This document shows positions 8,173 to 47,974 of a stretch of DNA of 64,000 nt, piece by piece. Source of the stretch: Rhodoligotrophos appendicifer (lineage in GTDB: Bacteria > Pseudomonadota > Alphaproteobacteria > Rhizobiales > Im1); the NCBI RefSeq assembly GCF_007474605.1, contig NZ_VHKL01000004.1:1-64000 (forward strand), written 5' to 3'. Below the pieces are notes generated by a model. That model worked only from the letters and a program-made list of their open reading frames with translations. It was not told the origin of the DNA and ran no database searches. Positions within the stretch are counted from its first letter, which is position 1. Each line of letters begins with the position of its first letter. The position numbers and the translations under genes are program-made.

Positions 8173-8216
8173 CCGTGAAGATACGAACCCGCCGAGCTTG
8201 AACGGGAGAGAACGAT

Positions 8217-30006: not shown

Positions 30007-30138
30007 GCTTTTCCCCCACGAACGACCTACCCTCTCGGCTAAAGCTGGCTCTCACTCAGCTCGTCTCTGCTGGACTGGCCAAGCCGTATCCAAACCGTCG
30101 TGGTGGGGCACCAGGAGACGCTCCACGAAATATGGATT

Positions 30139-30152
30139 GTGATTCACCGTTC
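30139..30152 (+). promoter_or_regulatory. Copy 1 of the shared 14-bp upstream element
   Basis: Reads GTGATTCACCGTTC in the direction of the downstream oxidoreductase gene and ends 88 bases before its ATG. It matches the BVMO copy at 12 of 14 positions and the DadA-like copy at 11 of 14, in the same orientation to each gene. Confidence 0.5.
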
Positions 30153-30240
30153 ATGTTAGGCTTGGAAGAGTGTAGTGTTGCCGCCGGAGCCCACAGGGCC
30201 GGCTGTAAGTCGATACGTCAAGAAGGAAAGGTCATCAGAG

Positions 30241-33200
30241 ATGGCGCTGCGTCAGGTCTCTTTGTCCGATCGGTACGAGCTTCGGGAAGGCCAGATCTTC
30301 CTTTCGGGGGTGCAGGCCCTCGTTCGCCTGCCGATGATGCAGATCGACGCTGACCGCGCCCAAGGCCGCAATACCGCAGGCTATGTCACAGGATATCCCG
30401 GTTCGCCGCTGGCCTCATTAGACGTGCAGCTCAGACAGGCAAAGGACGTCCTGGCGTCCCGGGGTGTGACGTTCCAACCCGGTCTCAACGAGGACCTGGC
30501 GCTTACGGCAATCTGGGGCTCGCAGCAGGGGGAAGCGCGGGGCGACAGTCGCTACGACGGAGTATGCTCCTATTGGTACGGGAAAGGTGCAGGCCTTGAC
30601 CGCTCCGGTGACGCGCTGCGCCACGGGAATCTCGCGGGATCCTCTCCCAAAGGGGGCGTGCTCCTGCTGGTCGGTGATGACCATCGCGCCGAATCCTCCA
30701 GCGTTGCGCATTATTCCGAATATACGATGCTGGACTTCATGATCCCGCTGCTCAATCCGGCTGATGTCGCGGAACTCATCGAGTATGGGCTGTACGGTAT
30801 AGCGCTGTCGCGCTTCTCAGGTAGTTGGGCAGCGCTCAAATGCACTCACGATGTCGTCGAAAGCGCGGCCTCGATTTCCGTCGATGATCGTCTTCGCTCC
30901 TATGTGACGCCCCTCGATTTCGAGCTGCCGCCGGGAGGTCTGAACCTCCGCTATCCCGACACACCGCTTGGCCAGGAGGCCCGGCTTCACAACCACAAAA
31001 TTCCCGCGATGCTGGCTTTTCAGCGCGCCAATCCGCTGGACAGAATCGTCTGGGGCAAAGGAGAGCGACGCCTCGGCATCGTCACAACAGGCAAGACCAC
31101 GCTCGATGTAGTGGAGGCGCTTGAGGAGATCGGTATCGGGGCAGAGGAAGCCGCAACGTTTGGCATCCATCTTTACAAGGTCGCCATGACGTGGCCGCTC
31201 GAACCGTGGGGAGTGAAGGCGTTCTGCCGCGACATGGAGCGGATCTTCGTCGTTGAGGAAAAGCGCAGCCTCATTGAGAGCCAGCTCAAGGAACTTCTGG
31301 TCAATGACCGGTCGGGAATCGTCGTCGGAAAGCGTGACGAGATGGGCATGTCGCTCCTGCCGAGCACCGGCACTCTGTCGAGCCGCGTCATCGCTCTAGC
31401 CATCGGAAAAGAACTCGCAAAGCTCGGGCAGACGGGTCCCTTCGTGGCGAAGCTTCAAGAGATGGAAGCCCGGGAGAACGCCAAGGTTATCCCGCTCTCG
31501 CCAATGGACCGCAAACCGTCCTTCTGCTCCGGCTGTCCCCATAACCGCTCCACCGTCGTGCCGGAAGGGAGCCGCGGCGGAGCAGGCACCGGCTGCAACT
31601 ACATGGCCATGTGGATGGATCGCGGCAGCGTCGGCTATACGCAGATGGGCGCGGATGGCGTGAACTGGATTGGCGAGGCGCCATTCAGCCATCGTACCCA
31701 TGTTTTCCAGAACATGGGAGACGGCACCTATACCCATTCAGGGCTGCTGGCCATCCGTGCTGCGGTAGCGGCCGGCGTGAACATCACCTTCAAGATCCTG
31801 TTCAACGGTGTGGTCGCCATGACTGGCGGTCAGCCGCATGACTTTGCGCTGACCGTACCGGTCATCCTGAAGCAGGTCTTGGCGGAGGGGGTGCAGCGTG
31901 CCATCGTTGTGGCCGACGACCCGGACCGGCATGCCGACGAGGAGTTGCCCGAGGGCGTGCGCGTGCACCACCGCAATGATCTCGACCATGTGCAACGCGA
32001 GTTGCGCGGCGTTCCTGGTGTCACCGTCCTTGTCTACGACCAGATGTGCGCAACCGAGAAGCGACGCCGACGGAAGCGTGGCCTCATGGAGGATCCCACG
32101 AAGCGCGTCTTCATTAATCATGCGGTTTGCGAGGGTTGCGGCGATTGCGGGGCCAAGTCGAGCTGTGTGTCGATCCTGCCCCGCGAAACAGCGCTGGGCC
32201 GCAAGCGCGAGATCGATCAGTTCTCCTGCAACAAGGATTACTCGTGCATCGAGGGTTTTTGCCCAAGCTTCGTCACTATTCATGGCGGGACACTGCGCAA
32301 GCCGGAGACCAAGACACTCGCCGGCTCGGCCTCCCTTCCAGATCCAATCCTGCCTTCATTGGCAGAGCCCTTCAACATTGTCATGGCGGGAGTCGGTGGA
32401 ACCGGGGTCATCACTCTTGCCGCCATTCTCGGTATGGCAGCCCATCTCGAGGGCAAAGGTTGCGCCACATTGGACATGATGGGTCTTGCGCAAAAGGGAG
32501 GGGCCGTTACCTCCCATGTCCGCATCAGCGCCTCGCCCGAGACCTCACCTGCCGCCCGCATCGGTGTCGAGCAAGCAGACATTCTGCTCGGATTTGATCT
32601 CCTGGCGGCGATCGGCGAAGAAGCGATCTCGACAATCCGCTTTGGCAAAACTCAGATCATCGCCAACACGGCCGAGGTCATGCCCGGCGACTTCGCCCGG
32701 CAACCAGACCTGGCCTTTCCCACGCGCTCTGTTCGGCAGAGACTCGAGGCTGCGGCGGGAACGAGCCAAGTCAGCTATCTCGACGCCACCACTCTGGCGA
32801 CTGAGGCGGCGGGCGACGCCCTTGCCGCCAATGCCTGGCTCGTCGGTTTCGCCTTCCAGAAAGGATTGATCCCCCTTTCGATGACGGCGCTTGAGCGGGC
32901 GTTCGAACTCAATGGCGCTGCTGTCGAAATGAACAAGGCCGCCCTCCAAGCGGGTCGGGGCGCCGCTCTGGGAGAGGCCAATCCCAAGGTCGCCTCCCGG
33001 TCTGCGCCGACGGAGGATCTGTCGTCGCTCGATGCCTTGATCGCCCATCGAAGCCGCTTGCTGAAGGCCTATCAGAACCGGCGCTATGCCCGTCGCTTTG
33101 AGACCTTCGTCGAACAGGTGCGGGCTGCCGACACACAAGCGTTCGGCGAGGCCGGCGCCTTTACCCGGGCTGTCGTTCAATCGCTCTCCAAGCTGATGGC

Positions 33201-33681
33201 GTACAAAGACGAATATGAGGTGGGCCGGCTGTTCTCAGACGGGAGCTTCGAGGAGGATCTGCGTCAGCGGTTCACCGGCGATTTCACCCTGCACTACCAT
33301 CTCGCACCGCCACTGTTCGCCAAGCGGGATCCCGTCACCGGCCATCTGAAAAAGAAGGAATACGGCCCCTGGGTTGCGCGCGCCTTTGGCGTTCTGGCAT
33401 CTTTCCGGTTCGTCCGCGGCAGCGTGCTCGATCCTTTTGGCCACAGCGAAGAGCGGCGCATGGAACGGCGTATGATCGAGGATTACCGGACCGAGATCGA
33501 GCAGCTCGTGCCCAAGCTGACCGCAGATACATACGAGACGGCTGTCGCCATTGCTTCACTGCCCATGGATATTCGAGGATTCGGCCATGTGAAGGAAGCC
33601 AACCAAGCCCGAGTAGAACAACGGCGACAAGCCCTGCACGCGGCGCTGGACGCGCCGCAATGCTTGATCGCCGCCGAATGA
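30241..33681 (+). CDS. Fused indolepyruvate ferredoxin oxidoreductase
   Basis: A 1,146-residue single-chain 2-oxoacid:ferredoxin oxidoreductase. It would decarboxylate an aryl or branched 2-oxoacid to the acyl-CoA, using thiamine diphosphate and passing electrons to ferredoxin or flavodoxin. The order is an N-terminal alpha-type region (TGYPGSPLASLD), a ThDP-binding region near 440-560 (FCSGCPHN, GTGCNYMAMWMDR, MGDGTYTHSG), a Cys-rich segment (CEGCGDCGAKSSC, then a second Cys group) and a C-terminal gamma-type domain starting near GVGGTGVITLAAILG. The ATG follows AAGGAAAGG. Convergent to the racemase gene, 12 bases apart. The true substrate may differ from indolepyruvate. Confidence 0.9.
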   Translation: MALRQVSLSDRYELREGQIFLSGVQALVRLPMMQIDADRAQGRNTAGYVTGYPGSPLASLDVQLRQAKDVLASRGVTFQPGLNEDLALTAIWGSQQGEARGDSRYDGVCSYWYGKGAGLDRSGDALRHGNLAGSSPKGGVLLLVGDDHRAESSSVAHYSEYTMLDFMIPLLNPADVAELIEYGLYGIALSRFSGSWAALKCTHDVVESAASISVDDRLRSYVTPLDFELPPGGLNLRYPDTPLGQEARLHNHKIPAMLAFQRANPLDRIVWGKGERRLGIVTTGKTTLDVVEALEEIGIGAEEAATFGIHLYKVAMTWPLEPWGVKAFCRDMERIFVVEEKRSLIESQLKELLVNDRSGIVVGKRDEMGMSLLPSTGTLSSRVIALAIGKELAKLGQTGPFVAKLQEMEARENAKVIPLSPMDRKPSFCSGCPHNRSTVVPEGSRGGAGTGCNYMAMWMDRGSVGYTQMGADGVNWIGEAPFSHRTHVFQNMGDGTYTHSGLLAIRAAVAAGVNITFKILFNGVVAMTGGQPHDFALTVPVILKQVLAEGVQRAIVVADDPDRHADEELPEGVRVHHRNDLDHVQRELRGVPGVTVLVYDQMCATEKRRRRKRGLMEDPTKRVFINHAVCEGCGDCGAKSSCVSILPRETALGRKREIDQFSCNKDYSCIEGFCPSFVTIHGGTLRKPETKTLAGSASLPDPILPSLAEPFNIVMAGVGGTGVITLAAILGMAAHLEGKGCATLDMMGLAQKGGAVTSHVRISASPETSPAARIGVEQADILLGFDLLAAIGEEAISTIRFGKTQIIANTAEVMPGDFARQPDLAFPTRSVRQRLEAAAGTSQVSYLDATTLATEAAGDALAANAWLVGFAFQKGLIPLSMTALERAFELNGAAVEMNKAALQAGRGAALGEANPKVASRSAPTEDLSSLDALIAHRSRLLKAYQNRRYARRFETFVEQVRAADTQAFGEAGAFTRAVVQSLSKLMAYKDEYEVGRLFSDGSFEEDLRQRFTGDFTLHYHLAPPLFAKRDPVTGHLKKKEYGPWVARAFGVLASFRFVRGSVLDPFGHSEERRMERRMIEDYRTEIEQLVPKLTADTYETAVAIASLPMDIRGFGHVKEANQARVEQRRQALHAALDAPQCLIAAE

Positions 33682-33693
33682 TGAGGGGCTGGT

Positions 33694-34425
33694 TTAATAC
33701 AGCCCTTCGTACCGACGCCGTGTAGTGCCGGCCTGCATATAGTCGATCATCGAGATGAAATCGAAAACCGGAAGACCGGTCGCATCCTGCACCGCCTTTG
33801 AGTAAGGCGGTAGCATCGAGCATTCGATGAGGATTGAACTCATGTTGGGATGGCGCTCTTGCAGTTCGAGCGCACAATTGACGGTCTCCTGCTCGATCAA
33901 ATCGCTGTCGAGCACCTCGCCGCCGCCTAAGATCGCATCGGCGAAATGCGGTTGATCCTCCATGCCGCCGATTACGACGTTGATGTCTGACTTGATCCCG
34001 GCAAGCTCCAGTACCTGGTTGCCGAGGGACCGCCGTGAGGCCGTGACGCAGCCGATCGGGCGCTTGGGATCGAACATCGCAGACATGAAGGGAATCTGGA
34101 GCAGGCTCGACATCAGCACGGGAACTTTCACGGCATCACGCACGTGGCTCTGATACTGGACGAGGAAGCCGCAATCGCTCGAGATCGCCCGGACACCATG
34201 CGCCTCCAATTCCTTCGCCGCCTCAATGATCAAGGGCGCACACTCGGGATCGCCAGCGCAGACACGATCGAAGGTCAGGCCCTTCACCACCTTGTAGAGC
34301 ACCGGATAATCATAGGTACTGGCGTTGCCCACATCTCCCGGGATGAACGGTCCTTGATAGTCCAGCATCAGAATGCCGACCGCATGCCCATAACTGTCCG
34401 CTTTACGTACACGATACTTGGCCAT
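33694..34425 (-). CDS. Asp/Glu/hydantoin racemase family protein
   Basis: A 243-residue protein of the superfamily that uses two cysteines for proton transfer. Both are visible, in ISSDCGFLVQYQ and in LIECSMLPPYS. The family includes amino-acid and hydantoin racemases and maleate isomerase, so the substrate is open. It is the third gene of a minus-strand set with a DadA-like flavoprotein and RidA. That context favours interconversion of amino-acid enantiomers ahead of the D-specific dehydrogenase. Confidence 0.82.
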   Translation of the reverse strand: MAKYRVRKADSYGHAVGILMLDYQGPFIPGDVGNASTYDYPVLYKVVKGLTFDRVCAGDPECAPLIIEAAKELEAHGVRAISSDCGFLVQYQSHVRDAVKVPVLMSSLLQIPFMSAMFDPKRPIGCVTASRRSLGNQVLELAGIKSDINVVIGGMEDQPHFADAILGGGEVLDSDLIEQETVNCALELQERHPNMSSILIECSMLPPYSKAVQDATGLPVFDFISMIDYMQAGTTRRRYEGLY

Positions 34426-34461
34426 GACCGCCCTCCCTGGGACGTGAGTGTTACAGATCCA

Positions 34462-34947
34462 CTATACTGCTATTTCGACCTCTCCCTCGATCTCAACCGG
34501 CAGATCGAGTGGCAGAACCGCCATACCCACCGCAGAGCGCGTATGCGCGCCACGCTCAGGCCCGTAGAGTTCAACGATCAAATTGCTGAAGCCGTTGATG
34601 ACCGGCGTCGTGCTGTTGAAGCCTGGCGCCACATTGACCATGCCCAGCACCCGCAGCCATTGTGTCACGCGATCAAGATCACCGATCTCACGCTTCAGGC
34701 TGGCGAGCATCGACAAACCAACCAGCATCGCCGCATGTGCGCCTTGCTCGAGGGTGAGGTCGGAGCCGACCTTCCCCAGCGGTTGCGCCGGTGACCCGTC
34801 GGGCGCCTGTGGAGCATGGCCAGCGATATAGGCATGGTTGCCGCGTACGATCACGGTCTTGAAGGGTAACACCATGCCAGGCGGAGCCTTGAACGGCTCC
34901 GGCAGATACAACCCCATCTTCGCGATCTTTGCTTCAACTTCAGCCAT
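34462..34947 (-). CDS. RidA family enamine/imine deaminase
   Basis: A 161-residue protein of the YjgF/YER057c/UK114 family. Its C-terminal block TRSAVGMAVLPLDLPVEIEG contains the conserved Arg that binds the substrate carboxylate. RidA hydrolyses reactive imines released by PLP or FAD amino-acid enzymes to 2-oxoacids and ammonia. The gene lies 30 bases downstream of the DadA-like gene, a pairing that makes biochemical sense. It is a little longer than the usual 130 residues because of an N-terminal extension. Confidence 0.87.
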   Translation of the reverse strand: MAEVEAKIAKMGLYLPEPFKAPPGMVLPFKTVIVRGNHAYIAGHAPQAPDGSPAQPLGKVGSDLTLEQGAHAAMLVGLSMLASLKREIGDLDRVTQWLRVLGMVNVAPGFNSTTPVINGFSNLIVELYGPERGAHTRSAVGMAVLPLDLPVEIEGEVEIAV

Positions 34948-34977
34948 TAAACTCTCCTCGTGGGTTATTGCTCATGG

Positions 34978-36219
34978 TCAATATGACCGGTCGATCCGAA
35001 ACGGTGCAAGGTCGATGCTGGTCGGCTTGTGGCTCACCGCCTCTGCGATCAGCTTGCCCGTAATTGCGCCAGTGGTCAGCCCCATATGGCTATGTCCAAA
35101 GGCGTAGAATGCGTTTCTGAAGTGGGGCGAAGCCCCCAGAACTGGGAGCGAGTCCGGCGTCAATGGCCGCTCACCGAACCATTGTGTCATACCCTCAGCG
35201 TTGATGCCCGGCAAAATTCGCTTGCCCCAGGACAGAACCATCTCTGACTGACGCCAGTCCGCGGGTGCATCGATGCCCGGAAAGGCCGAGGCGCCTACGA
35301 TCCGCAATCCCATATCCATCGGCGTAATCGCAATCTTGGCCGCTCCGGCAATGATCAGGTGGCGGATGTCCACACCAGAATTGGGCAGGGTCACGTGGTA
35401 ACCGCGTTGGCTTTCAAGCGGCACTTTGCTCCCGAGCTTGCGGGCCAACTTGTCCGACCAAGCACCTGCCGCGATGACCACGGCGTCGCAGGGATACCGG
35501 CCACCTTTGGTCAGGACGGCGGTCACTCCCTCGGGTCCACGATCGAAATCGACAACTTCATCGAGCACGATCTTGCCACCCTTGCGCTGCACCAATTCGG
35601 CCAGCCCGGCGACGATCTTGTAAGGGTTCCTCACATAGTGCCAGTCCGTCTCCAACACCGCAGCCTTGTAATCGCGCGAAATGCTGGGTTCAAGCTGCCG
35701 CAACTCGTCGTCGCTGATGACTTCGAAGGGCAGTCCCTTGTCACGGCGGCCTTGCCAGAAGGGCCAATCATGCCGGAGGGCCGCATCATCCTTGTAAATC
35801 CACAAGCCGCCCCCCGCCCGCACTAGATCGGTCAACCCAGCCTCTTCGAAGAGGGGCTTCCAGGCTGCGTAGGCCGGTGGCATGAAGGACGTCAGCGCTT
35901 CTGTGCATTCCTTCACCCGCTCCGGCCTGCAATTGCGCAGAAACTTCCACAGAAATGGCAGCATCTGTGGCATGTGGGACCAACGTAGCGACACAGGCCC
36001 TTCAGGATCGAGATAGTATTTAACATATTTCTTCATCAGGCCGGGCATAGCCAAGGGCAAAACAAAGGTACTGGCGATGCCACCGCCATTTCCAAAGGAG
36101 GTTGATCGCCCCGGTTCCACACGATCGATCACAGTGACTTGGTGTCCATCGCGTTGGAGATAGCTGGCACAGCCCATCCCCACCACACCGGCGCCGATCA
36201 CAACCACGTTCTGACCCAA
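34978..36219 (-). CDS. DadA-like FAD-dependent amino-acid dehydrogenase
   Basis: A 413-residue flavoprotein with the N-terminal dinucleotide fold VVVIGAGVVGMGCASYL and a C-terminal FAD-contact block FGHSHMGLTTGAITGKLIAE. It matches the DadA/DAO group, which oxidises D-amino acids or other secondary amines to imines at the membrane, feeding the electron chain. The start is TTG at 36219, supported by a strong GGGAGG site. It heads a three-gene unit with RidA and the racemase. The 14-bp shared element sits 104 bases upstream. Confidence 0.87.
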   Translation of the reverse strand: MGQNVVVIGAGVVGMGCASYLQRDGHQVTVIDRVEPGRSTSFGNGGGIASTFVLPLAMPGLMKKYVKYYLDPEGPVSLRWSHMPQMLPFLWKFLRNCRPERVKECTEALTSFMPPAYAAWKPLFEEAGLTDLVRAGGGLWIYKDDAALRHDWPFWQGRRDKGLPFEVISDDELRQLEPSISRDYKAAVLETDWHYVRNPYKIVAGLAELVQRKGGKIVLDEVVDFDRGPEGVTAVLTKGGRYPCDAVVIAAGAWSDKLARKLGSKVPLESQRGYHVTLPNSGVDIRHLIIAGAAKIAITPMDMGLRIVGASAFPGIDAPADWRQSEMVLSWGKRILPGINAEGMTQWFGERPLTPDSLPVLGASPHFRNAFYAFGHSHMGLTTGAITGKLIAEAVSHKPTSIDLAPFRIDRSY

Positions 36220-36304
36220 GAATGCCTCCCGCGATGTGGCTGACGGAAACTACGCCCGCGCCAATAGCATGTCCGCACGCGGACGAGATCACACTCCGCG
36301 TTCG

Positions 36305-36318
36305 TTGACACCGGTCAA
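36305..36318. promoter_or_regulatory. Palindrome in the DadA/ECH divergent region
   Basis: A perfect dyad TTGAC-ACCG-GTCAA lies between the divergent DadA-like and enoyl-CoA hydratase genes, close to the shared 14-bp element. It could be an operator for the TetR regulator encoded just downstream; this is inferred from position only. Confidence 0.4.
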
Positions 36319-36323
36319 ATGAT

Positions 36324-36337
36324 GAGCGATGAATCAT
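36324..36337 (-). promoter_or_regulatory. Copy 2 of the shared 14-bp upstream element
   Basis: Reads ATGATTCATCGCTC in the direction of the DadA-like gene and ends 104 bases before its TTG start. It is the most divergent of the three copies, at 11 of 14 to either other. Confidence 0.45.
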
Positions 36338-36366
36338 GAATCGTCAATGGCCGTAAGGTTAGCCCG

Positions 36367-37125
36367 ATGCCGATCGTTACCAATCTCATCGAGCCGGGCA
36401 TCGTCTGCGTCAGCCTCGACAACCCGGGACGCCGGAATGCACTGGACCACGCCATGTTCCTCCAGCTTGCCGAGTTGTGGCCCGCACTTGCCGCAGATCC
36501 GAGCGTGCGCGTCGTGCTGATGCGCGGCCATGGTGAAGATGCTTTCTGCTCCGGTGCAGACTTATCCGCTAATCTCGATCGCCTCGCAGATATTGATGAG
36601 TTGCTCGATCGTGCCCTGCTGAAGACGACGCTGTTTTCAAAGCCGCTTGTCGCCTCGATCGTCGGCGCCTGTGTGGCTGGCGGGCTGGAGCTGGCTTTAG
36701 CTGCAGATCTCAGGATCGCCGCGGAAGATGCGCGCTTCGGAATGCCGGAAGTTCGATGGGGGATCATGCCCTCCGGGGGCGGCGCGATGAAGCTTGCCCT
36801 GCAAATCGGTCAGGCCAAGGCGATGGACCTTCTGCTCACGGGGCGGATGATTTCCGGCCGAGACGCGGACGGGATGGGGCTGGTCAGCGAAATCTGTTCG
36901 CGCACAGAGGTCTGGACCACAGCCCTTGAGCGGGCCAGAATGATCTCGCGAAACAGCTGGGCGGCCGTCCAGGCCACGAAAGAGGCGGCTTTGGGGCCAA
37001 GGACTCAGGCATATCTCCCTCAGGAAGCCGGCGAACGTGCGCTGGCTGCGAAGGTCCGCGCAAGCGGCCATCCGGAAGAGGGCAAGGCCGCCTTCTTGCA
37101 AAAGCGTGCGCCTGTGTTTCTTTAG
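36367..37125 (+). CDS. Enoyl-CoA hydratase/isomerase family protein
   Basis: A 252-residue crotonase-fold enzyme. It has the oxyanion-hole regions DAFCSGADLS and VAGGLELALAADLRIA and the acid residue in FGMPEVRWGIMPSGGG. These enzymes hydrate, isomerise or cleave CoA thioesters. It is followed by the TetR gene on the same strand and is divergent from the DadA-like unit. A step processing an acyl-CoA made by the nearby ferredoxin oxidoreductase is plausible. Confidence 0.88.
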   Translation: MPIVTNLIEPGIVCVSLDNPGRRNALDHAMFLQLAELWPALAADPSVRVVLMRGHGEDAFCSGADLSANLDRLADIDELLDRALLKTTLFSKPLVASIVGACVAGGLELALAADLRIAAEDARFGMPEVRWGIMPSGGGAMKLALQIGQAKAMDLLLTGRMISGRDADGMGLVSEICSRTEVWTTALERARMISRNSWAAVQATKEAALGPRTQAYLPQEAGERALAAKVRASGHPEEGKAAFLQKRAPVFL

Positions 37126-37160
37126 GATACCCGTATCGACTCATCAGAGGCCCTTTACCA

Positions 37161-37811
37161 TTGACCGCAAACCGCGCCATGACGACCCAGCCTGCCCAGA
37201 AACTCACCCGGGCGGAGAAAGGCCAGAAGATCAAGGCCGACCTGTTTCACGCCGCAGCCAAGGTTGTGGGCGAGGTCGGCTACGCCAATGCTCTGGTGTC
37301 GTTGATCACCGCGAATGCCAAAGTTGCCCAGGGGACCTTCTATAATCATTTCGACTCCCGCCAGGACTTGTTCGACCAGCTGCTACCCGCTTTGGGGGCA
37401 GAGTTGCTCGACTTCATCCGCGCCCAGGCCCATGGCGCACCAGATGCAATTGAGCGAGAGCGGCGCAGCTTCCTCTCGTTCTTCGAGTTCATTAAGCTGA
37501 AGCCCGAATTCTATCGGATCCTCTACGAGGCCGAGGTTTTTGCGCCGAGGGCCTTTCAAATGCATATGGACCGGATCGCCGACGCCTATATCCGCACGCT
37601 CGAGCGCGGCTTCGGGAACGGCGAAGTTGTCTTCTCAGATCGCCGGCAATTAGAAGCTCTGGCTTTCAGCCTGATGGGCGCTCGGCAATATCTTTGCATG
37701 CGTTTCGCGCGGCAGGATGGCCAAACCGTCGATCTGCCGGATTGGGTGACCGAATCATATATGACCCTGGTTACCCAAGGCATCTACAGGCTGAGCGCCG
37801 CAGCCCGCTGA
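37161..37811 (+). CDS. TetR-family transcriptional regulator
   Basis: A 216-residue protein with an N-terminal TetR helix-turn-helix (about 18-65; VVGEVGYANALVSLITANAKVAQGTFYNHF). It has a ligand-binding C-terminal domain. The TTG at 37161 is preceded by AGAGG; an ATG six codons later lacks a ribosome-binding site. Its 3' end overlaps the convergent Baeyer-Villiger gene by 28 bases. It is the obvious candidate reader of the palindrome at 36305 or of the shared 14-bp element, both of which lie in flanking intergenic regions. Confidence 0.87.
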   Translation: MTANRAMTTQPAQKLTRAEKGQKIKADLFHAAAKVVGEVGYANALVSLITANAKVAQGTFYNHFDSRQDLFDQLLPALGAELLDFIRAQAHGAPDAIERERRSFLSFFEFIKLKPEFYRILYEAEVFAPRAFQMHMDRIADAYIRTLERGFGNGEVVFSDRRQLEALAFSLMGARQYLCMRFARQDGQTVDLPDWVTESYMTLVTQGIYRLSAAAR

Positions 37812-39742
37812 GGCTTGTCCTGCGGCGCAGTCGACGAAAAATGTAGTTGATAAGCCTGCATGTCAACATCATGGGTCATCGCCCAATAGTCCACGAAGCG
37901 CCATGGCATGACCGAGAATACTCGGCCTCGGGAATTGCGATAATAGGTCGTCATCCCCGGATGACTCCAGATCAGTTGTTCGTGCTCCTCGTCTACCCGG
38001 CGCACATAGTCGTCGTGAGCTTCACTGCCGATTTCAATTGAAACGGCACCTCGCTCGATCATGGCCACCATGCAGCCGGTCACGTGGCGGATCTGGCATT
38101 CTGCCTGGAAGATCACGCTGCCGCCATGTCCCGGCCCAGAGTTCGGCCCCAGCATGCAGAAGAAATTAGGAAAGCCGGGTACGGTCAATCCGAGGTAAGC
38201 GGTCGGATTGTCCGGGCTCCAAACCTCACGCAAGGTCTTTCCACCCGCGCCTGTGATGTTGAGGCGAGCCGCCATCTCGGTGACCTTGAAACCGGTCGAG
38301 AGCACGATCACATCGGCTGGCCGCAATGTTCCATCTGTAGTGCGAATGCCGGTTGCCTCTATCTGCTCAATGGCCGTGTCTATAAGGTCGACATTCTCCT
38401 TGAGCAGCGTCCGGTACCAACCATTGTCCAAGAGTATGCGCTTGCCATAAGGGGGGTAACTCGGCACGCATTTCGCGATGAGGTCAGGCCTATCGCCCAG
38501 CTCGGCACGGATGAAGTCCGTCATCTCCTCACGATGGCGATCGTTGATCCGATTGACGGCACGATCGGGGTGCGCCCAATTCGGGTCCTTGCGCAGCAGC
38601 GGCAGAAGACCGTCCCCATAGCGCCAGAACATGTTGAAGCGAAACCATTCCGAGTAGAAGGGAATGGTCTTGAGCAGCAGCTGTATGCCCTCACTGATCG
38701 GATCAGAGTAGCCTGCAATCGGCCTCGCCCATTGTGGCGTGCGCTGGTAAACATCCACGGATTCGCAGCTGTCCGCGATGGTCGGCACCAACTGCATGGC
38801 CGTCGCTCCCGTGCCGATCACAGCCACTCGCTTGCCAGCGACCGCCACGCCCTCGTTCCAGTAGGTCGAATGCAGCAACTCCCCGGAAAAGCTGTCGGTC
38901 CCCTTGATGGGTGCGGGCGAAGGATCATTGAGCTGACCCACTGCACTGACCAAAAAGGTGCTCTCGAACGTGGTCTGCTCATCGCCGCTGACCAGGGTCG
39001 ATTTCCAGAGATTGCAGCTTTCGTCCCATCGCGCCGCGGTCAGGCGACAATTAAAGCGAATGTTGCGGCGGAGGTCGAAGCGGTCGGCGAGCCCATGCAG
39101 ATAGGCCTCGATCTCTTCACGAGGGGAGAAATAGCGGCTCCATCGGTGACCTTGCGCGAAGGAAAAGGAATAGGAATGATTGGGTGTATCCACGCCGCAG
39201 CCAGGGTAGCGATTCACATGCCACGTGCCACCGAGATCGGCATTCTTTTCCACGATCGTATAGGGAATGCCGAGGCGGCCCAGCTTGATTGCCAAAGCGA
39301 GCCCGCAGACTCCTGCTCCCACAATCAGCGCGTGGCGATTGGCCAGTGTCGACGTCGCCGGCTGTTCGCTCCAGTCTATGTCGCGAGAGACGAGCCCCAT
39401 CTCTTCGCGATTGAGGGCCGCATACTCCGGAGCCACTTTCTCACCAAGACAAATGCTCATCATGGTGTGCATGAGATCTTCACCGGGATCGCGAATTACC
39501 GGTTCAGGGATCCCGTCGGCAAAAATCTTTCGGGCTGCCGCCCTGACCTCCTCCTGAATGTCGGGGCCCAGACCAGCCTGGGGATCGGGGATCAGTCGGA
39601 CATCGCGCTTGGGGTGGTAAGGCGGCTCCAGCCAGCGAGCGTCTCCCGTCATATGGAAGAGCACCATGAGGAGGACGCGAATGTCAGCCTCTGCTAAAGC
39701 GCTGTCCAGAGTTTCACAATTCAGCTCGTGAGCGTCAGACAT
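37784..39742 (-). CDS. HAPMO-like Baeyer-Villiger monooxygenase
   Basis: A 652-residue type I flavoprotein monooxygenase. An N-terminal extension of about 135 residues (starting LAEADIRVLLMVLFHMTGD) is the hallmark of 4-hydroxyacetophenone monooxygenases. Two Rossmann motifs are present (IVGAGVCGLALAIKLG and VIGTGATAMQL), and between them is the fingerprint FSGELLHSTYWN, where Asn takes the usual Pro/Asp position. These enzymes insert oxygen next to a carbonyl to form an ester or lactone. The start at 39742 begins the conserved extension. It is on the same strand as the flavin reductase, esterase and LLM genes upstream, but after a 159-base gap holding the 14-bp element. Confidence 0.87.
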   Translation of the reverse strand: MSDAHELNCETLDSALAEADIRVLLMVLFHMTGDARWLEPPYHPKRDVRLIPDPQAGLGPDIQEEVRAAARKIFADGIPEPVIRDPGEDLMHTMMSICLGEKVAPEYAALNREEMGLVSRDIDWSEQPATSTLANRHALIVGAGVCGLALAIKLGRLGIPYTIVEKNADLGGTWHVNRYPGCGVDTPNHSYSFSFAQGHRWSRYFSPREEIEAYLHGLADRFDLRRNIRFNCRLTAARWDESCNLWKSTLVSGDEQTTFESTFLVSAVGQLNDPSPAPIKGTDSFSGELLHSTYWNEGVAVAGKRVAVIGTGATAMQLVPTIADSCESVDVYQRTPQWARPIAGYSDPISEGIQLLLKTIPFYSEWFRFNMFWRYGDGLLPLLRKDPNWAHPDRAVNRINDRHREEMTDFIRAELGDRPDLIAKCVPSYPPYGKRILLDNGWYRTLLKENVDLIDTAIEQIEATGIRTTDGTLRPADVIVLSTGFKVTEMAARLNITGAGGKTLREVWSPDNPTAYLGLTVPGFPNFFCMLGPNSGPGHGGSVIFQAECQIRHVTGCMVAMIERGAVSIEIGSEAHDDYVRRVDEEHEQLIWSHPGMTTYYRNSRGRVFSVMPWRFVDYWAMTHDVDMQAYQLHFSSTAPQDKPQRAAALSL

Positions 39743-39832
39743 AGGCAACAGGCTCCCTCCGCGGACGAAGCCTATCCACAGCGCGTGGTGCAAGGCTCCT
39801 GGTGAATGTCCTAGGCGCCTCTAGTCTTAGAC

Positions 39833-39846
39833 GAACCGTGAATCAT
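39833..39846 (-). promoter_or_regulatory. Copy 3 of the shared 14-bp upstream element
   Basis: Reads ATGATTCACGGTTC in the direction of the Baeyer-Villiger gene and ends 90 bases before its ATG, almost the same spacing as copy 1 (88 bases). This implies the gene has its own promoter. Confidence 0.5.
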
Positions 39847-39901
39847 CAGTCAAGTTTCTTAGAGGATGGGGTGGGGGCTAGAGCGACGAGCCCAACACGG
39901 G

Positions 39902-40232: not shown

Positions 40233-40757
40233 CTACTCGACCAAAAAATTGCCGTCGACGAAAACAAGGGGGGCCACTTCCTGATGGATGATGGCTTCCA
40301 TCACCTCTCCCACCAGCAGCGTGTGGGTGCCGAATGGCATCAGCGGTCCCAAACGACAGTGGATTACTGCCTGGGCACCGATGAGATACGGAGAATGTCC
40401 ACTGTCGAACTGCCACTCACCGACAGTGAACCGCTCCGCTGCCGGCAATTTTGCGAAAGCGTTGCCTATATGAGCCTGATCGCGTCGCAGCAAATTCACT
40501 GTGAAGCGGCCGGATTCATGGAGGGGTGCATGGATCGAGGCGTTCTTATTGACGCAGACCACTAATGCTGGCGGCTCCATGGATAGGGAAGTAATGGCAG
40601 TCGCGGTCATGCCGAACCAGCGCTCACCTTCAGCTGTGGTCACAATGCCGACGCCACTGGCGAGGCGACGCATTGCTCCGCGAAATCTCTGCCGCAGCTC
40701 CTGCCCCGCCATCTCCTCATAAGGCACAGCGGTGGAAATGGGTTGGCTGTGCATCAC
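40233..40757 (-). CDS. Flavin reductase (HpaC-like)
   Basis: A 174-residue flavin reductase-like domain protein. It has RFRGAMRRLASGVGIVTT, MTATAITSLSMEPPALVVCVN and GRFTVNLLRRDQAHIG, the typical FMN-binding blocks. It would supply reduced FMN or FAD to a two-component oxygenase, most likely the luciferase-like monooxygenase encoded upstream. The start (GTG at 40757 or the adjacent ATG) overlaps the stop of the esterase gene. Confidence 0.9.
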   Translation of the reverse strand: MMHSQPISTAVPYEEMAGQELRQRFRGAMRRLASGVGIVTTAEGERWFGMTATAITSLSMEPPALVVCVNKNASIHAPLHESGRFTVNLLRRDQAHIGNAFAKLPAAERFTVGEWQFDSGHSPYLIGAQAVIHCRLGPLMPFGTHTLLVGEVMEAIIHQEVAPLVFVDGNFLVE

Positions 40758-41710
40758 GAGCTTTTGCCTTCCGACCGTAGGGCATAGGAAAGATGTCTAG
40801 CAAGCTCGGCAATGACAGCCTTGGCCGCCGGGATAAAGGTCTCCATCGGCAGAAATCCGTGGATCTGCCCCTGGGCTCGCTTCATCGTCACAGTGACTCC
40901 CGCTTCCACAAGTTTTTTGGCGAAGCGCTCAGCTTCATCACGCAGTGGATCGTGACTGGCCGTGAGGACAAATGTGGGCGGAAGTGCTGACAGGTTCTCT
41001 GCCCGCATGGGGGAGGCGCGCCAGTCACTCCGATCGACGGGATCGTTCAGATAATGAGTGTGAAACCACTCCTGCAGGGAACGGGTCAGGAAATAGCCTT
41101 CGGCAAACTCCTCATGAGAGGGTGTGTCGAAGCTCATGTCGGTCACAGGATAAATCAACATGAGATAGCTGAAGGGCGACCTGCCGGCGCGCGCATTATG
41201 GAGAACCGTTGCGATCGATAGGGTGCCGCCGGCGCTGTCGCCGCCAATCGCCACCCGCGAGACATCGAACCTCAATGACGAAGCCTGCTTCAGCAGCCAA
41301 TCGCTAGCTGCAATTGCATCCTCAACGCCGCCAGGGAACTTGGCCTCCGGAGCCAGTCCATAGTCCACCGAGACGACTGCACACCGGGCCTGGTGGGCAA
41401 ATTGCCGACAGAGACCGTCATGGCTGTCGAGGTCGCCCAGGACCCAGCCCCCGCCATGGAGGTAGATCAACAAGGGCAGAGGTTCTGTGCCGGATCCCAG
41501 GGGACGATAGTGACGCATGGCAACCGGGCCGCGGGGCCCAGGCGCTTCAATATCCTCCACCATCTCCATGGGCTGGGGTTCGGCCGTGGATGCTCTTCGT
41601 GCTGCGCCATAGGCATCCCGCGCCTCCTGCGGTGACAGGCTCTCATAGAGAGGCCTGCCAGACGCGGCCATCAGTTCGAGCACGCGCGCGGCTCCCGGAT
41701 CCAGTGTCAT
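40754..41710 (-). CDS. HSL-family alpha/beta hydrolase (esterase)
   Basis: A 318-residue esterase of the hormone-sensitive-lipase family. It has the oxyanion motif YLHGGGWVLGD, the nucleophile elbow GGDSAGGTLS, a catalytic Asp in SHDPLRDEAE and a His in GQIHGF. It could hydrolyse the ester or lactone produced by the Baeyer-Villiger enzyme. The start at 41710 begins the conserved region, 25 bases after the LLM gene stop; a longer frame upstream translates as non-conserved sequence. Confidence 0.9.
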   Translation of the reverse strand: MTLDPGAARVLELMAASGRPLYESLSPQEARDAYGAARRASTAEPQPMEMVEDIEAPGPRGPVAMRHYRPLGSGTEPLPLLIYLHGGGWVLGDLDSHDGLCRQFAHQARCAVVSVDYGLAPEAKFPGGVEDAIAASDWLLKQASSLRFDVSRVAIGGDSAGGTLSIATVLHNARAGRSPFSYLMLIYPVTDMSFDTPSHEEFAEGYFLTRSLQEWFHTHYLNDPVDRSDWRASPMRAENLSALPPTFVLTASHDPLRDEAERFAKKLVEAGVTVTMKRAQGQIHGFLPMETFIPAAKAVIAELARHLSYALRSEGKSS

Positions 41711-41735
41711 GGCCTGACCTCCGACAGAACTCGCC

Positions 41736-43037
41736 TCAGCTTTCGACCTTTTCCTTCTTGGCGTGGGGGTCGGCGCGAGGCACCGAAATGGAGCCGCCAC
41801 GGTCAGAGAAGGTCGACACCTGAGCCACCCCAACGGTCGCATCCTTCTTGCGCCCGAATGCGTCAACCACGGGGATGTCCATCTCCTCAATTTCGGCCAT
41901 GCGCTTCTTGCGGGCCAAGGCCGCTTCGATATAGGGAGCAAGCTCCTCGCGCTTCTTGGCCTCACGAATGAGATCGCGCGCCTTGAAGTCGGGCATCACT
42001 GTATCAGCGAAGAGCTGCAGTGATTCCATAATGTGCTCGTGTTTGTTGTTGCCGCTCTGCTGCACGAAAATGATCTGATCGACACCGATCTTCTCATAGC
42101 GCTCCAGGTGGGCCCGCACCTGATCGGGGGTCCCGATCCCGCCATTGCCGGCATTGTCCTTCAGGCCGTCCTTCACCTCGAGGAATTTTTCCCAGACCTG
42201 CGAACGGCCCGGCCGGTGCTGCCCATAAAGGCCGTAATATCCCAGCGAATAGCCAAAGAAGCGGAAACCATCGAGACCCCGATCTAAAGCCTCCTGCTCG
42301 TCTTCATGAATCGACATCCCACTCACGAGGGCGATGTTCGGATTGACGGTATGGGCGAGCGGCACGCATTCATCGGATTTGATGATATCGTAGTATTCCT
42401 GGACCCAATGGGCCGCCTGCTCCGGCTCCACGAAGGCAAAGGCCAGAGCTCCGAGGCCATGCTTCGCGGCGCGATGGATGGATTCCCGGCGAGAGCACGC
42501 GACCCACATCGGGGGGTGCGGCCGTTGCACTGGCTTCGGAACGACGTTGCGGGCGGGCATCTCAAAATATTCGCCCTTGTAGCCAGGATAGGGGGTCATC
42601 GCCATCATGTTGGCGGCCTGCTCAGTCGCTTCCTGCCACTTCTGAGTCTTGTCGTCGGGCGTCATCCCGAAGCCGCCCATTTCCATCGCAGTGGCGGATT
42701 CGCCGGTGCCCCACTCCACGCGGCCGCGTGATACGAGATCCAGGGTGGCAATCCGCTCCGCGGAGCGAGCAGGATGATTGTAGTTCGGGGACATCAGCAT
42801 CACGCCATGTCCCAGGCGGATGTTCTTCGTCCGCTGCGAGCAAGCAGCCAGAAAGACTTCCGGAGCCGATGAATGCGAGTATTCCTCCAGGAAGTGATGC
42901 TCCACCTCCCAGACATAATCATATCCGAGCTTGTCGGCGAGTTCTACCTGATCAAGTGCATCTTGATAGAGCTTTAGTTCTGAACCCTCGGTCCAAGGTT
43001 CAGGCAATTGATGCTCGTAGAACATGCCGAACTTCAT
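41736..43037 (-). CDS. LLM-class flavin-dependent monooxygenase
   Basis: A 433-residue bacterial-luciferase-like TIM-barrel protein. Typical blocks are MKFGMFYEHQLPEPW, YVWEVEHHFLEEYSHSSAPE, IRLGHGVMLMSPNYNHPARSAERIATLD and GRVEWGTGES. It would use FMNH2 from the flavin reductase two genes downstream. The family includes type II Baeyer-Villiger enzymes and enzymes opening N-heterocycles, so the substrate cannot be fixed. The C-terminal 60 residues are a charged extension beyond the barrel. GAGGA precedes the ATG. Confidence 0.88.
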   Translation of the reverse strand: MKFGMFYEHQLPEPWTEGSELKLYQDALDQVELADKLGYDYVWEVEHHFLEEYSHSSAPEVFLAACSQRTKNIRLGHGVMLMSPNYNHPARSAERIATLDLVSRGRVEWGTGESATAMEMGGFGMTPDDKTQKWQEATEQAANMMAMTPYPGYKGEYFEMPARNVVPKPVQRPHPPMWVACSRRESIHRAAKHGLGALAFAFVEPEQAAHWVQEYYDIIKSDECVPLAHTVNPNIALVSGMSIHEDEQEALDRGLDGFRFFGYSLGYYGLYGQHRPGRSQVWEKFLEVKDGLKDNAGNGGIGTPDQVRAHLERYEKIGVDQIIFVQQSGNNKHEHIMESLQLFADTVMPDFKARDLIREAKKREELAPYIEAALARKKRMAEIEEMDIPVVDAFGRKKDATVGVAQVSTFSDRGGSISVPRADPHAKKEKVES

Positions 43038-43259: not shown

Positions 43260-44423
43260 TCACCAGGCCGTTTCAAGAATCTCCATCACGTCGGATTCAT
43301 CCGTCACTGGCCGAGGATTGAACCGGGCCTGACCGCTGGCAATCACCGTCCGTGCGATGGGCTGCAGCTGATCACGGGTCACACCGACATCCCTCAGGCG
43401 TCGAGGCAGGCCCAATTCCTCGAGTATCTCGAGCAGAGCATCGGCAGCCGGTTGGCCAGGCCGCTCCAGCGCTTCACTGACGATCTCCTGCCGATCGGCA
43501 TTCACCTTACTGTTGAAGCGCATCGTCGCCGGCAGCAAGACGCAGGAACAATGTCCATGGGGCACGTTTGCAATCGCTGCCAAGGAATAGCTGATGCCGT
43601 GGCTGGCGCCGTGCTGGCCACGGCCCATGCCGCTGGTGGAGAGCCAGACCCCCATCTGAGACTGAAGACGCGCGTCGAGATCCTGGGGATCTTTGCGGGT
43701 TCGCCGCAGGGACCGCTGCAACATGCGAAGACCGTGGATGCAGGTCGCATCGGTGAAGGGGTTCGCCGTTGGTGAACAGATGGATTCAACTGAATGATCG
43801 ACGGCCCGGAAAGCCGTCGAAAGCCACAGCCATTCCGTCGTGTGCACAGCGACACTTGGATCAAGCAGGGTTGCGACGGGAACCAGTTGCGGGGCTACAT
43901 AGAGGTCCTTTTTGTGGGCGACGTCATCGACGGAGCCGCCTGTAGTTGTATATTCGGCCCCCGACAATGTCGTCGGGATCGCGATCTGCCGCAGTCCCCC
44001 GTCGCGAACGCCGGGGTTGAAGATCGCGCCGTCAGCGCCACGTTGAAGATGAAATCGGTTGAAGTCCTCATGGGTTCTGATGTCCTCGGAGAGGCCCACC
44101 TGAACCAGCTTGGCGCCGTCGATCGACGAACCGCCACCGAGGGAGATCAACAAGTCGGGATTGGCCTCGCGTGCCAGGCTCAAAGCTTTCAAGAGAGCAC
44201 TGCGCGGCGAATGCGCCGGCATGTCATCAAAGACACCCTTATAACGCGGGCCTAAAATCTGTTTGACGCGCTCAAGGGCATCGGTCTCACGGCTCAAGGT
44301 CTTTGATGAGAGCACAAAGACGCGCTCGGCTCCCAGATTCTTGACCTCACGAGCCAGGGCGACCTCTATCGTTTCGCCGAAGTTCACCCGCTCGAGGGGA
44401 AAATACTCGTAAATGCCCTGCAT
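43260..44423 (-). CDS. Iron-containing alcohol dehydrogenase
   Basis: A 387-residue group III alcohol dehydrogenase or maleylacetate-reductase-like enzyme. It has the nucleotide-binding SLGGGSSIDGAKLV, PTTLSGAEYT and the metal-ligand region AVDHSVES with later His residues in HGASHGISYS and NVPHGHCS. It could oxidise an alcohol to the ketone used by the monooxygenases, or reduce maleylacetate at the end of a hydroquinone-type pathway. It is divergent from the LysR gene, with the LysR operator candidate between them. Confidence 0.88.
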   Translation of the reverse strand: MQGIYEYFPLERVNFGETIEVALAREVKNLGAERVFVLSSKTLSRETDALERVKQILGPRYKGVFDDMPAHSPRSALLKALSLAREANPDLLISLGGGSSIDGAKLVQVGLSEDIRTHEDFNRFHLQRGADGAIFNPGVRDGGLRQIAIPTTLSGAEYTTTGGSVDDVAHKKDLYVAPQLVPVATLLDPSVAVHTTEWLWLSTAFRAVDHSVESICSPTANPFTDATCIHGLRMLQRSLRRTRKDPQDLDARLQSQMGVWLSTSGMGRGQHGASHGISYSLAAIANVPHGHCSCVLLPATMRFNSKVNADRQEIVSEALERPGQPAADALLEILEELGLPRRLRDVGVTRDQLQPIARTVIASGQARFNPRPVTDESDVMEILETAW

Positions 44424-44555
44424 GCTTTCGTTTCCTACCCTTTGATGACGGACCCTCTTTGAGGCGATTGGAGGTCGCTGGGATCCTGTTGCGTCGATCC
44501 TTCCATATTACGGATCGGTAAGGGCTTGCGAATGATCGTTCTGCGACTACCATTG

Positions 44556-44574
44556 TTGCACTTCATGCAAAGAA
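44556..44574. promoter_or_regulatory. LysR-type operator, copy 1
   Basis: TTGCA-CTTCA-TGCAA is a perfect five-base dyad with the T-N11-A core of LysR-type boxes, followed by AGAAG... giving TTGCA-N5-TGCAAAGAAG in all. It ends 12 bases before the GTG start of the LysR gene, so it overlaps the ribosome-binding region and fits autoregulation. A second copy lies in front of the transporter operon. Confidence 0.6.
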
Positions 44575-44586
44575 GGTCTGCATTCT

Positions 44587-45594
44587 GTGGAAACCCTCAA
44601 GAATATCCGGCTCTTCATCAAGGTCGTCCAGGCCGGGAGTTTTTCCGCGGCCGGACGGCTCATCGGTCTGTCGCCCGCCTCCGTCTCCAGACAGATCAAT
44701 GCCTTGGAGCATGCCCTTGGCGTTCGCCTCATTTATCGGACCAGTCGGAAGCTCACTTTGACCGAAGTCGGGCAGATGTATTTCGAACGCGCATCCGACA
44801 TCATCAACGAGCTCGACGCGCTGGAGAGCGTGGTCTCAGAGCACCAGACCAAACCCAGGGGCCTGCTGCATGTTCACACCCGAGTGTCCATCGGCACTCG
44901 GCTGCTTTCCTCGGCGCTCCCCGCCTTCAACGAGCATTTCCCCGAGATCAAAGTCAAGCTGTGGCTCACCGAAGAATCGCGTGATCTTATCGAACATAAA
45001 ATTGACGTTGCTATCAGGCTTGGAAACTTGGATGAGCCTTCTCTGGCGGTGCGGAAGCTGTGGGATGCCAGTCAGCGCATTATCTTCGCCAGCCCAACCT
45101 ATCTCGCTACCCATCCGATAATCGACCGACCGGATGATCTGCTGCAGCATAGCTGCCTCACCTATCTCGACGGACGATTTGACGACGGGTCTGCCATGTG
45201 GCGGTTGCGAAACCGTGCAGGAACCAAAGATCTCAGGGTGACTGGTCCGATCCAGGTCAATAATCCTGAGCTGGTAAGAGAATGCGCGCTCGCAAACATG
45301 GGACTCGGCCTGCTGCCGAAATGGTGCATCTGGGACGAGCTTCAGTCCGGCCGCTTGGTCCATGTCTTGCCAGATTGGCAAACCAGTCCCACGACGTTCG
45401 ACCATAACATCTATGCGGTCTATGAACGCTCACGCTATGTGCCACTGAAAGTCCGAACCTTCGTCAATTTCCTGGTTGGCTTCTTCGCCAATCGCAAAGA
45501 CGGAGCGACCAGCGCCACGGACTTTGAACCATTGTTCGGGATCGATGATCCCGAGGACAGGCGGCACCTCGAAACCGAATGGTCAACGATGTGA
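44587..45594 (+). CDS. LysR-family transcriptional regulator
   Basis: A 335-residue regulator. The N-terminal winged helix (about 1-60) reads LFIKVVQAGSFSAAGRLIGLSPASVSRQINALE. An effector-binding domain (about 90-295) follows, with SSALPAFNEHFPEIKVKLWLTE and CALANMGLGLLPKW. The GTG start has AAGAAGG upstream. It probably controls the divergent alcohol dehydrogenase/monooxygenase genes and the downstream transporter operon, since the same dyad occurs in front of both units. Confidence 0.93.
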   Translation: METLKNIRLFIKVVQAGSFSAAGRLIGLSPASVSRQINALEHALGVRLIYRTSRKLTLTEVGQMYFERASDIINELDALESVVSEHQTKPRGLLHVHTRVSIGTRLLSSALPAFNEHFPEIKVKLWLTEESRDLIEHKIDVAIRLGNLDEPSLAVRKLWDASQRIIFASPTYLATHPIIDRPDDLLQHSCLTYLDGRFDDGSAMWRLRNRAGTKDLRVTGPIQVNNPELVRECALANMGLGLLPKWCIWDELQSGRLVHVLPDWQTSPTTFDHNIYAVYERSRYVPLKVRTFVNFLVGFFANRKDGATSATDFEPLFGIDDPEDRRHLETEWSTM

Positions 45595-45614
45595 CCAGGC
45601 GCGCCATGAGATCT

Positions 45615-45633
45615 TTGCATAAATCGCAAAGAA
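45615..45633. promoter_or_regulatory. LysR-type operator, copy 2
   Basis: TTGCA-TAAAT-CGCAAAGAAG repeats the element found before the LysR gene: the five-base left arm and the nine bases GCAAAGAAG are identical. It sits about 130 bases upstream of the carboxymuconolactone-decarboxylase-like gene that heads the transporter operon. Confidence 0.6.
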
Positions 45634-45762
45634 GCTTGTCGACCATTGATATTTTCTTCTCGGCACTTGCCCCTACCATGTGCCGCTGAAAAGCGACCAT
45701 GGGGACATATCACGGCGAGATTTGCTGTATGACTCATGGCGATAGATAAAAGCGAGGTCGGG

Positions 45763-46533: not shown

Positions 46534-46618
46534 CCAGGCTCAGCAAGCCTTTATCACCGAAGAAAGCCGCCAAGCTGAAGCGGCGCTTCTCGTTCAGGAA
46601 ACTCAAGGGAGGAATATT

Positions 46619-47842: not shown

Positions 47843-47974
47843 CCGGCTCGCTGTGCATCGGCTGAGGTTCGGATCGCCAGAAGCGACGGGACCTCAGCCT
47901 TTGATTCTGCATCCGGGGTGGCGGAAGCTCTAACCTTCGCAACAGACGAAGGCAGCTTCCTTGAGGAGGAAATA

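Follow-up and report, generated by a model that had tools for sequence, protein, structure and literature searches.

A stretch of 64,000 nucleotides of Rhodoligotrophos appendicifer (contig NZ_VHKL01000004.1, positions 1 to 64,000; the window) carries a catabolic island in which three upstream regions share a short element. These three elements are very probably operators of the TetR-family regulator encoded at 37161-37811, which would repress four local units; we infer the binding, the repression, the promoter overlap and the ligand. Sequence comparison demonstrated the repeats, where they lie, and their association with this group of TetR proteins in many genomes. The element is a 21-bp imperfect inverted repeat with the family consensus TGAAttaTGAnTCAtaaTTCA (from a matrix of 24 non-window sites). 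The regulator and the sites are as follows:

37161..37811, plus strand: TetR-family regulator, the proposed binder (PF00440, 40.5 bits against a cut-off of 24; homologue alignment and tree)
30133..30153, minus strand: putative operator 1, TGAACGGTGAATCACAATCCA, upstream of the ferredoxin oxidoreductase gene
36323..36343, plus strand: putative operator 2, TGAGCGATGAATCATGAATCG, between the DadA unit (minus) and the hydratase-TetR unit (plus)
36330..36350, plus strand: second, overlapping copy at operator 2, TGAATCATGAATCGTCAATGG, offset by 7 bp (15.4 bits with the locus-scan matrix, 14.1 bits with the 24-site matrix)
39832..39852, plus strand: putative operator 3, CGAACCGTGAATCATCAGTCA, upstream of the Baeyer-Villiger-type gene (minus)
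39839..39859, plus strand: weaker overlapping copy at operator 3, offset by 7 bp (15.7 bits with the locus-scan matrix, 13.4 bits with the 24-site matrix)

A first-pass annotation of this DNA had described three copies of a 14-bp element, at 30139-30152 (plus), 36324-36337 (minus) and 39833-39846 (minus), with the same orientation to the gene named for each, gaps of 88, 104 and 90 bases from copy to start codon, and ten invariant positions. All of these details were reproduced. The best ungapped 14-mer of the three 180-bp upstream regions has ten invariant positions, a number reached by none of 200 shuffles (nine was reached by 14 of 200), in a test that presupposes the choice of these three units. 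The accompanying statement that nothing else is shared was not upheld, since 13 positions are invariant over 21 bp (among shuffles of the three regions, 12 occurred in one of 200 and 13 in none) and the element is an inverted repeat. This extension was seen by setting the copies beside the DNA around TetR homologues, a comparison in which the three 14-mer copies are the visible portion of the longer 21-bp element. Facing site 2 there is also a fourth, divergent unit, which consists of an enoyl-CoA hydratase gene and the TetR gene and starts at 36367, 16 bases past the overlapping copy. The TetR gene starts 35 bases after the hydratase gene, so the regulator probably controls its own unit. An inverted-repeat element adjoining the unit of its own TetR gene is what a local repressor of this family would be expected to show, and in the homologues the repeat likewise lies near the gene or at the operon head.

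Scoring matrices built from other genomes point to the same places. With a six-site matrix, from non-window sites beside TetR homologues, the ten best strand placements in the window all fall at the three sites, as do the six best positions with the 24-site matrix. Operator 1 scores 21.2 bits unsymmetrised and 19.1 bits symmetrised with the six-site matrix and 20.2 bits with the 24-site matrix, and is the top of the window in both. Operator 2 scores 13.8 to 17.7 bits, depending on the matrix, and operator 3 scores 18.2 bits with the locus-scan matrix and 16.6 bits with the 24-site matrix, which gives operator 2 its 13.8 bits. The six training sites had been located with words like those of the first-pass annotation, so that the six-site result taken alone is partly circular; this circularity is countered by a motif search without the window, by scans of wider loci and by a count of the strict repeat across a genus.

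The motif search covered intergenic DNA at 18 loci (one per cluster), with the window excluded, and succeeded once coding DNA had been masked (by crude open reading frame (ORF) calls) and inverted symmetry imposed. Its best motif was TGatcnntgAnTcanngatCA, at 53.5 against 46.6 for the next different motif, and the top four window positions of this motif lie at the three sites. When four sister loci were added, three of them known to hold sites, the best motif of the 22 loci was TGAatnatGAnTCatnatTCA, with its top six window positions at the three sites. Operator 1 ranks fourth to sixth in the window across the motif-search matrices.

The scan of wider loci found 34 places of at least 15 bits in 405 kb, in 24 of 25 TetR loci, compared with three places in 343 kb of control DNA (3 of 64 loci), and the three control loci concerned had been fetched because they resemble the repeat. 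At 20 bits the counts were 18 of 25 TetR loci and none of the 64 controls. Control loci were shorter than TetR loci, which makes the per-base counts the fairer comparison. Sites of a locus's own TetR cluster were excluded from training for L144-L150, L158-L160 and L122, and L122 was kept for its sister L125. The 25 loci exclude the own-genome match L156, the homologue L041 was not widened, and 19 of 20 clusters entered as wide or annotated loci. In a best-place scan of TetR loci, column-permuted controls peaked at 15 to 32 bits and the best places had P values of 0 to 0.02.

Repeat and regulator also occur together in one genus of the same order. Among 146 of its genomes, the TetR is matched at E 1e-45 or better in 92, and the strict repeat is present in 92, one copy each (the reversed pattern: none). 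Both are present in 90, TetR alone in two, the repeat alone in two and neither in 52; the distance between them was 0.1-1.7 kb in the 16 of the 90 genomes in which it was measured. At five loci of this genus (L144, L150, L158, L159 and L160) an orthologue of the Baeyer-Villiger-type enzyme (65-68% over 621-622 amino acids) lies near the TetR gene. In L150 the AMP-ligase, TetR and Baeyer-Villiger-type genes are consecutive on one strand, a transporter gene is divergent and the repeat (9151-9171) lies in between. The mechanically called ligase ORF (7613-9172) covers this repeat, from an ATG inside its edge, and a later ATG is taken as the likelier start. Conservation in orthologous islands, to which the first-pass annotation had looked for a check, is seen in part: the repeat is kept in another genus where TetR and Baeyer-Villiger orthologue co-occur, and no other genome showed the island as a whole.

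More distant genomes carry the repeat as well. Of 16 plasmid matches eight were fetched, five of these being widened, and in all eight annotated plasmids the best place is at the operon head or before the TetR gene. On an Azospirillum plasmid two repeats are flanked by a transporter gene on one side and a 2-oxoacid dehydrogenase E1 gene on the other; elsewhere the best place precedes a hydratase gene (Neorhizobium), an acyl-CoA dehydrogenase gene (Tistrella), an AMP-ligase gene (R. lusitanum) or the TetR gene itself (Sulfitobacter and Pontibrevibacter), or is found between MmgE/PrpD and SDR genes (Shinella and Rhizobium ACO-34A). Overlapping repeats, as at sites 2 and 3, are also present in L145 and L163. 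The suggestion of a binding site for one regulator, perhaps the TetR, is therefore supported by the same 21-bp repeat adjoining TetR homologues elsewhere or standing at their operon heads. The companion proposal of one regulon uniting the amino-acid and ketone parts of the island also appears sound, refined to four units that include the TetR gene and to a site of 21 rather than 14 bp. As a separate observation, one TetR homologue in L153 is surrounded by three strong repeats, scoring 28.0, 26.4 and 22.7 bits and distributed across 13 kb, perhaps a sign of a larger regulon in that genome.

In the 5.59-Mb genome of R. appendicifer itself, the degenerate 14-mer RTGATTCAYSGYTC has three exact matches, which are exactly these copies, and its reversed pattern has none; no shuffled window of 100 held three matches. 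This pattern was drawn up after the sites were known, and its match counts overstate the case. Allowing up to two mismatches raises the count to 225 strand matches, and the reversed pattern then has 68. The 21-bp pattern at up to three mismatches marks nine places, against three for the reversed control, and six of the nine are outside the island: four lie in mechanically called ORFs, a fifth covers the beginning of an SDR ORF and the sixth is ambiguous. None of the six is claimed as a regulon member. Measured against the background frequency that the first-pass annotation had named as a possible refutation, the exact 14-mer stands out in its own genome, while looser forms are common elsewhere and two outside places score like sites 2 and 3. 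One of these two is the following:

C1:481549-481569 (L137 7550-7570): TGAACGGTGATTCAAGATCCA, scoring 18.4 bits and covering the first codons of an SDR gene

This place is possibly a fifth target, or chance. The SDR gene adjoins a different TetR gene (L137 5952-6749). About 100 bases upstream of the SDR gene (L129 1655-1670) there is another inverted repeat with perfect 6-bp arms, GAACGA-TCAT-TCGTTC, possibly the operator of the TetR beside the SDR gene.

Several results weigh against the assignment of the three sites to the TetR. The places at C1:481549 and C1:421202, the latter inside a mechanically called ORF, score 18.4 and 18.7 bits with the 24-site matrix, above sites 2 and 3, and the genome was searched by pattern and not by matrix, so that equal-scoring places may have been missed. 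The window sites score below most family sites (site 2 at 13.8 bits), and the reversed unsymmetrised six-site matrix reaches 14.7 bits in the window, near the 15.1 bits of site 2 (the reversed symmetrised matrix reaches 9.6). In the motif search, the two next-best 18-locus solutions rank site 1 fifth and sixth, behind a place at 9380, and a search of the 400 bp upstream of TetR homologues that included coding DNA returned GGcGGCGA..., which was set aside as presumably coding DNA of an upstream AMP-ligase gene. The two closest homologues (55%; L143 and L157) have near the operon just a diverged repeat of 15.4 and 17.1 bits, which is kept between the two genomes and adjoins TTGACA before the AMP-ligase gene; the best place in L143, at 19.1 bits, is about 8.6 kb from the TetR gene. 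Scores are low in L151 (17.2 bits) and L154 (15.9 bits), and the matrix scan found no place above 11 bits in the TetR locus L152. The genus used for co-occurrence represents mostly one orthologous locus with shared ancestry, so its genomes are not independent and a Fisher value is not a fair probability. Finally, L043 and L045, which hold relatives of the DadA-like protein, showed no TetR homologue in the DNA searched and no 15-bit place.

The latter loci came from a search for the island by way of its DadA-like protein, which looks rare: among 397 genomes of the order, with the first four candidates per genome scored, one (its own) had a match at E 1e-130 or better. Alphaproteobacterial contigs of metagenome-assembled genomes gave two full-length relatives (66-67%), a partial relative of 76% lying at the end of its contig, and a weak match. 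At zero or one mismatch the 14-mer is absent from L043, L044 and L045, none of which reaches 15 bits with the 21-bp matrix; at two mismatches there is one in L043 (17683) and one in L045 (1311), and several at three across these loci. Conservation by way of the ferredoxin oxidoreductase was dropped, the best full-length match elsewhere being 53% (150 genomes searched), too distant for a footprint, and 29 of its loci were reused as controls in the wide scan.

The sites would lie close to promoters, of which two candidates were noted:

36319..36347, minus strand: promoter-like pair TTGACG-17-CATCAT for the DadA unit (consensus scan), with operator 2 lying across it
36305..36310, plus strand: TTGACA, a possible -35 of the hydratase-TetR unit (read from the sequence, unscored)

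For the hydratase-TetR unit a -10 at 36328-36333 would fall inside operator 2. The consensus scan is at background (six such sites in 18 kb against a shuffle mean of 5.8) and TTGACG-17-CATCAT is not significant alone; because of this, it is as an inference that we place the predicted operators over promoters. The copies could instead be a shared promoter element, such as a -35 region or the site of an alternative sigma factor, and not operators. TTGAC does adjoin or lie in the element at sites 2 and 3, and in L143 and L157, and the gaps to the start codons are alike at 88-104 bases. This explanation is nevertheless very improbable: the element is an inverted repeat that accompanies one TetR group across 146 genomes, in L150 and L144 it stands upstream of TTGAC and not at it, and the three exact 14-mer matches in the genome are few for a sigma-factor site.

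The assignment to the TetR at 37161-37811 in particular draws on its relatives. Its recognition helix region, AQGTFYNHF, resembles in the alignment that of most homologues with the repeat, and the annotated relatives are Alphaproteobacteria. The 13 named NCBIfam TetR models listed (FasR, FadR of the Bacillus type, FabR, BetI, AcrR and others) all fall below cut-off, the best being FasR with 45 against 330 bits. Among solved structures, FadR of Sulfolobus acidocaldarius is its nearest relative by sequence (E 9.4e-17). The sites might belong to another regulator, either the LysR encoded at 44587-45594, whose gene is within the same island, or a different TetR of the genome, which has further TetR genes, one of them beside C1:481549. 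The only other own-genome match at E 1e-20 or better, on contig C19 (L156), is 36% identical, and about 1.35 kb from it a repeat-like place scores 16.8 bits. Such an assignment is very improbable, since in distant genomes the repeat accompanies the TetR group of the window and the C19 protein has a different helix region, SLGAFYQHF. Nothing linking the LysR to the sites turned up, and LysR sites were not modelled. That the likeness among three upstream regions chosen after the fact is due to chance is scarcely credible, for although a post hoc choice of three among many units inflates significance and six of the nine places of the 21-bp pattern, itself found three times in reverse, are outside the island, no shuffle reached the observed match, motifs learned without the window return to the same three places, and none of 300 column-permuted versions of the 24-site matrix gave a third-best window position as high.

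With the TetR as the regulator, its dimer would bind the 21-bp inverted repeat overlapping the promoters and keep RNA polymerase off. At sites 2 and 3 two dimers might sit on the overlapping repeats 7 bp apart, an arrangement compatible with a two-dimer mode without being proof of it. The units repressed would be the ferredoxin oxidoreductase, the DadA-RidA-racemase-like unit, the hydratase-TetR unit (its own) and the Baeyer-Villiger-type enzyme. Release would probably be effected by a coenzyme A thioester arising within the pathway, such as the product of the 2-oxoacid oxidoreductase. The ligand is probably an acyl-CoA, as suggested by the acyl-CoA catabolic context of the homologue operons and by relatedness to the structure 6EL2.

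The genes of the four units, and the LysR gene, are:

30241..33681, plus strand: fused 2-oxoacid (indolepyruvate-type) ferredoxin oxidoreductase (NF009589 and NF009588, 1517 bits each, above cut-off)
33694..34425, minus strand: PRK07475-family protein, behind RidA on the shared strand (NF005679 'hypothetical protein', 275.6 bits against a cut-off of 231)
34462..34947, minus strand: RidA/YjgF-like protein, behind DadA on the shared strand (PF14588, 1.5e-10, above cut-off)
34978..36219, minus strand: DadA-like FAD amino-acid dehydrogenase (PF01266, 3.7e-66)
36367..37125, plus strand: enoyl-CoA hydratase/isomerase, first gene of the TetR-holding unit (PF00378, 2.3e-49)
37784..39742, minus strand: flavin monooxygenase of the Baeyer-Villiger/FMO kind (PF13738 and PF00743, above cut-off)
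44587-45594: LysR gene, in the same island

Some of these names are approximate. The DadA-like protein scores 212.6 with the NCBIfam model for D-amino acid dehydrogenase, whose cut-off is 383; the PRK07475-family protein, which we take to be racemase-like, gives 19.3 bits with the cysteate racemase model, below its cut-off; and the best NCBIfam model for the flavin monooxygenase is pentalenolactone D synthase, at 149 bits against a cut-off of 1100. The TetR and Baeyer-Villiger-type genes are convergent, with 3' ends overlapping by 28 bases (37784-37811). None of the ten top-scoring window places lies before the Fe-alcohol dehydrogenase and branched-chain-type transporter genes (43260-50667), and in Azospirillum L161 relatives of these genes (48% and 57-58%) are close to repeats. 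For the hydrolase, flavin reductase and luciferase-like group (40233-43037) the 24-site matrix gives no repeat among its top positions, just a weak one of 5.3 bits at 41272, within the genes. As a pathway, the DadA-RidA pair with the racemase-like protein would yield a 2-oxo acid, the ferredoxin oxidoreductase would convert it to an acyl-CoA, and hydratase and Baeyer-Villiger-type steps would follow.

The whole appears to be an ordinary kind of local regulon with a set of TetR operators, for which comparative support is good. The regulator gains a predicted operator and a target list, four island units are joined in one pathway hypothesis, in which an amino acid becomes a 2-oxo acid and then an acyl-CoA and a Baeyer-Villiger-type step takes part, and the 21-bp word could be used to assign targets to TetR homologues elsewhere, including those of plasmid-borne catabolic operons. 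Genes behind the repeat encode a 2-oxoacid dehydrogenase or ferredoxin oxidoreductase, AMP-ligase, acyl-CoA dehydrogenase, Baeyer-Villiger-type enzyme and branched-chain-type transporters, and a 2-oxoacid dehydrogenase may replace the oxidoreductase in homologous operons. The chances seem evenly balanced that the repeat is the mark of a TetR group not yet described and present in several alphaproteobacterial orders, with an operator nearly fixed and varying genes behind it. Such a group would amount to a portable acyl-CoA switch, into which new catabolic modules could be wired by gaining one 21-bp site.

Literature searches (open-licence papers, best-ranked results) found no earlier description of this operator. 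LiuQ, FadP and PsrA, which regulate the use of branched-chain amino acids and fatty acids, are TetR-family members acting on acyl-CoA catabolism, studied by the same comparative approach; LiuQ and FadP, unique to Betaproteobacteria among the factors studied, are by that description set apart from the TetR of the window (PMC5343134). BkaR of mycobacteria is likewise a TetR repressor of a neighbouring operon, for branched-chain keto acids, and differs in being actinobacterial (PMC3920632). EdcR of Caenibius tardaugens, a TetR repressor of oestradiol operons, resembles the present case in that its gene lies beside the catabolic operons it represses, and it has a palindromic putative operator overlapping the -10 box, as is predicted for the window; the paper also mentions an indolepyruvate ferredoxin oxidoreductase once. 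Its proposed palindrome, TnnCnnTACnAnTnGTAnnGnnA, is unlike the window repeat, and its effectors are free steroids (PMC8700777). The FadR of Sulfolobus acidocaldarius (PDB 6EL2, 6EN8) is a TetR-family protein that has four sites in its genome and represses a 30-kb cluster of catabolic acyl-CoA (beta-oxidation) genes; its semi-palindromic operators take one or two dimers each, some on overlapping repeats, and acyl-CoA releases it (PMC6449355). This FadR is archaeal and has a 16-bp motif with dyad symmetry (PMC6449355), whereas the element of the window measures 21 bp and is known here from its sequence.

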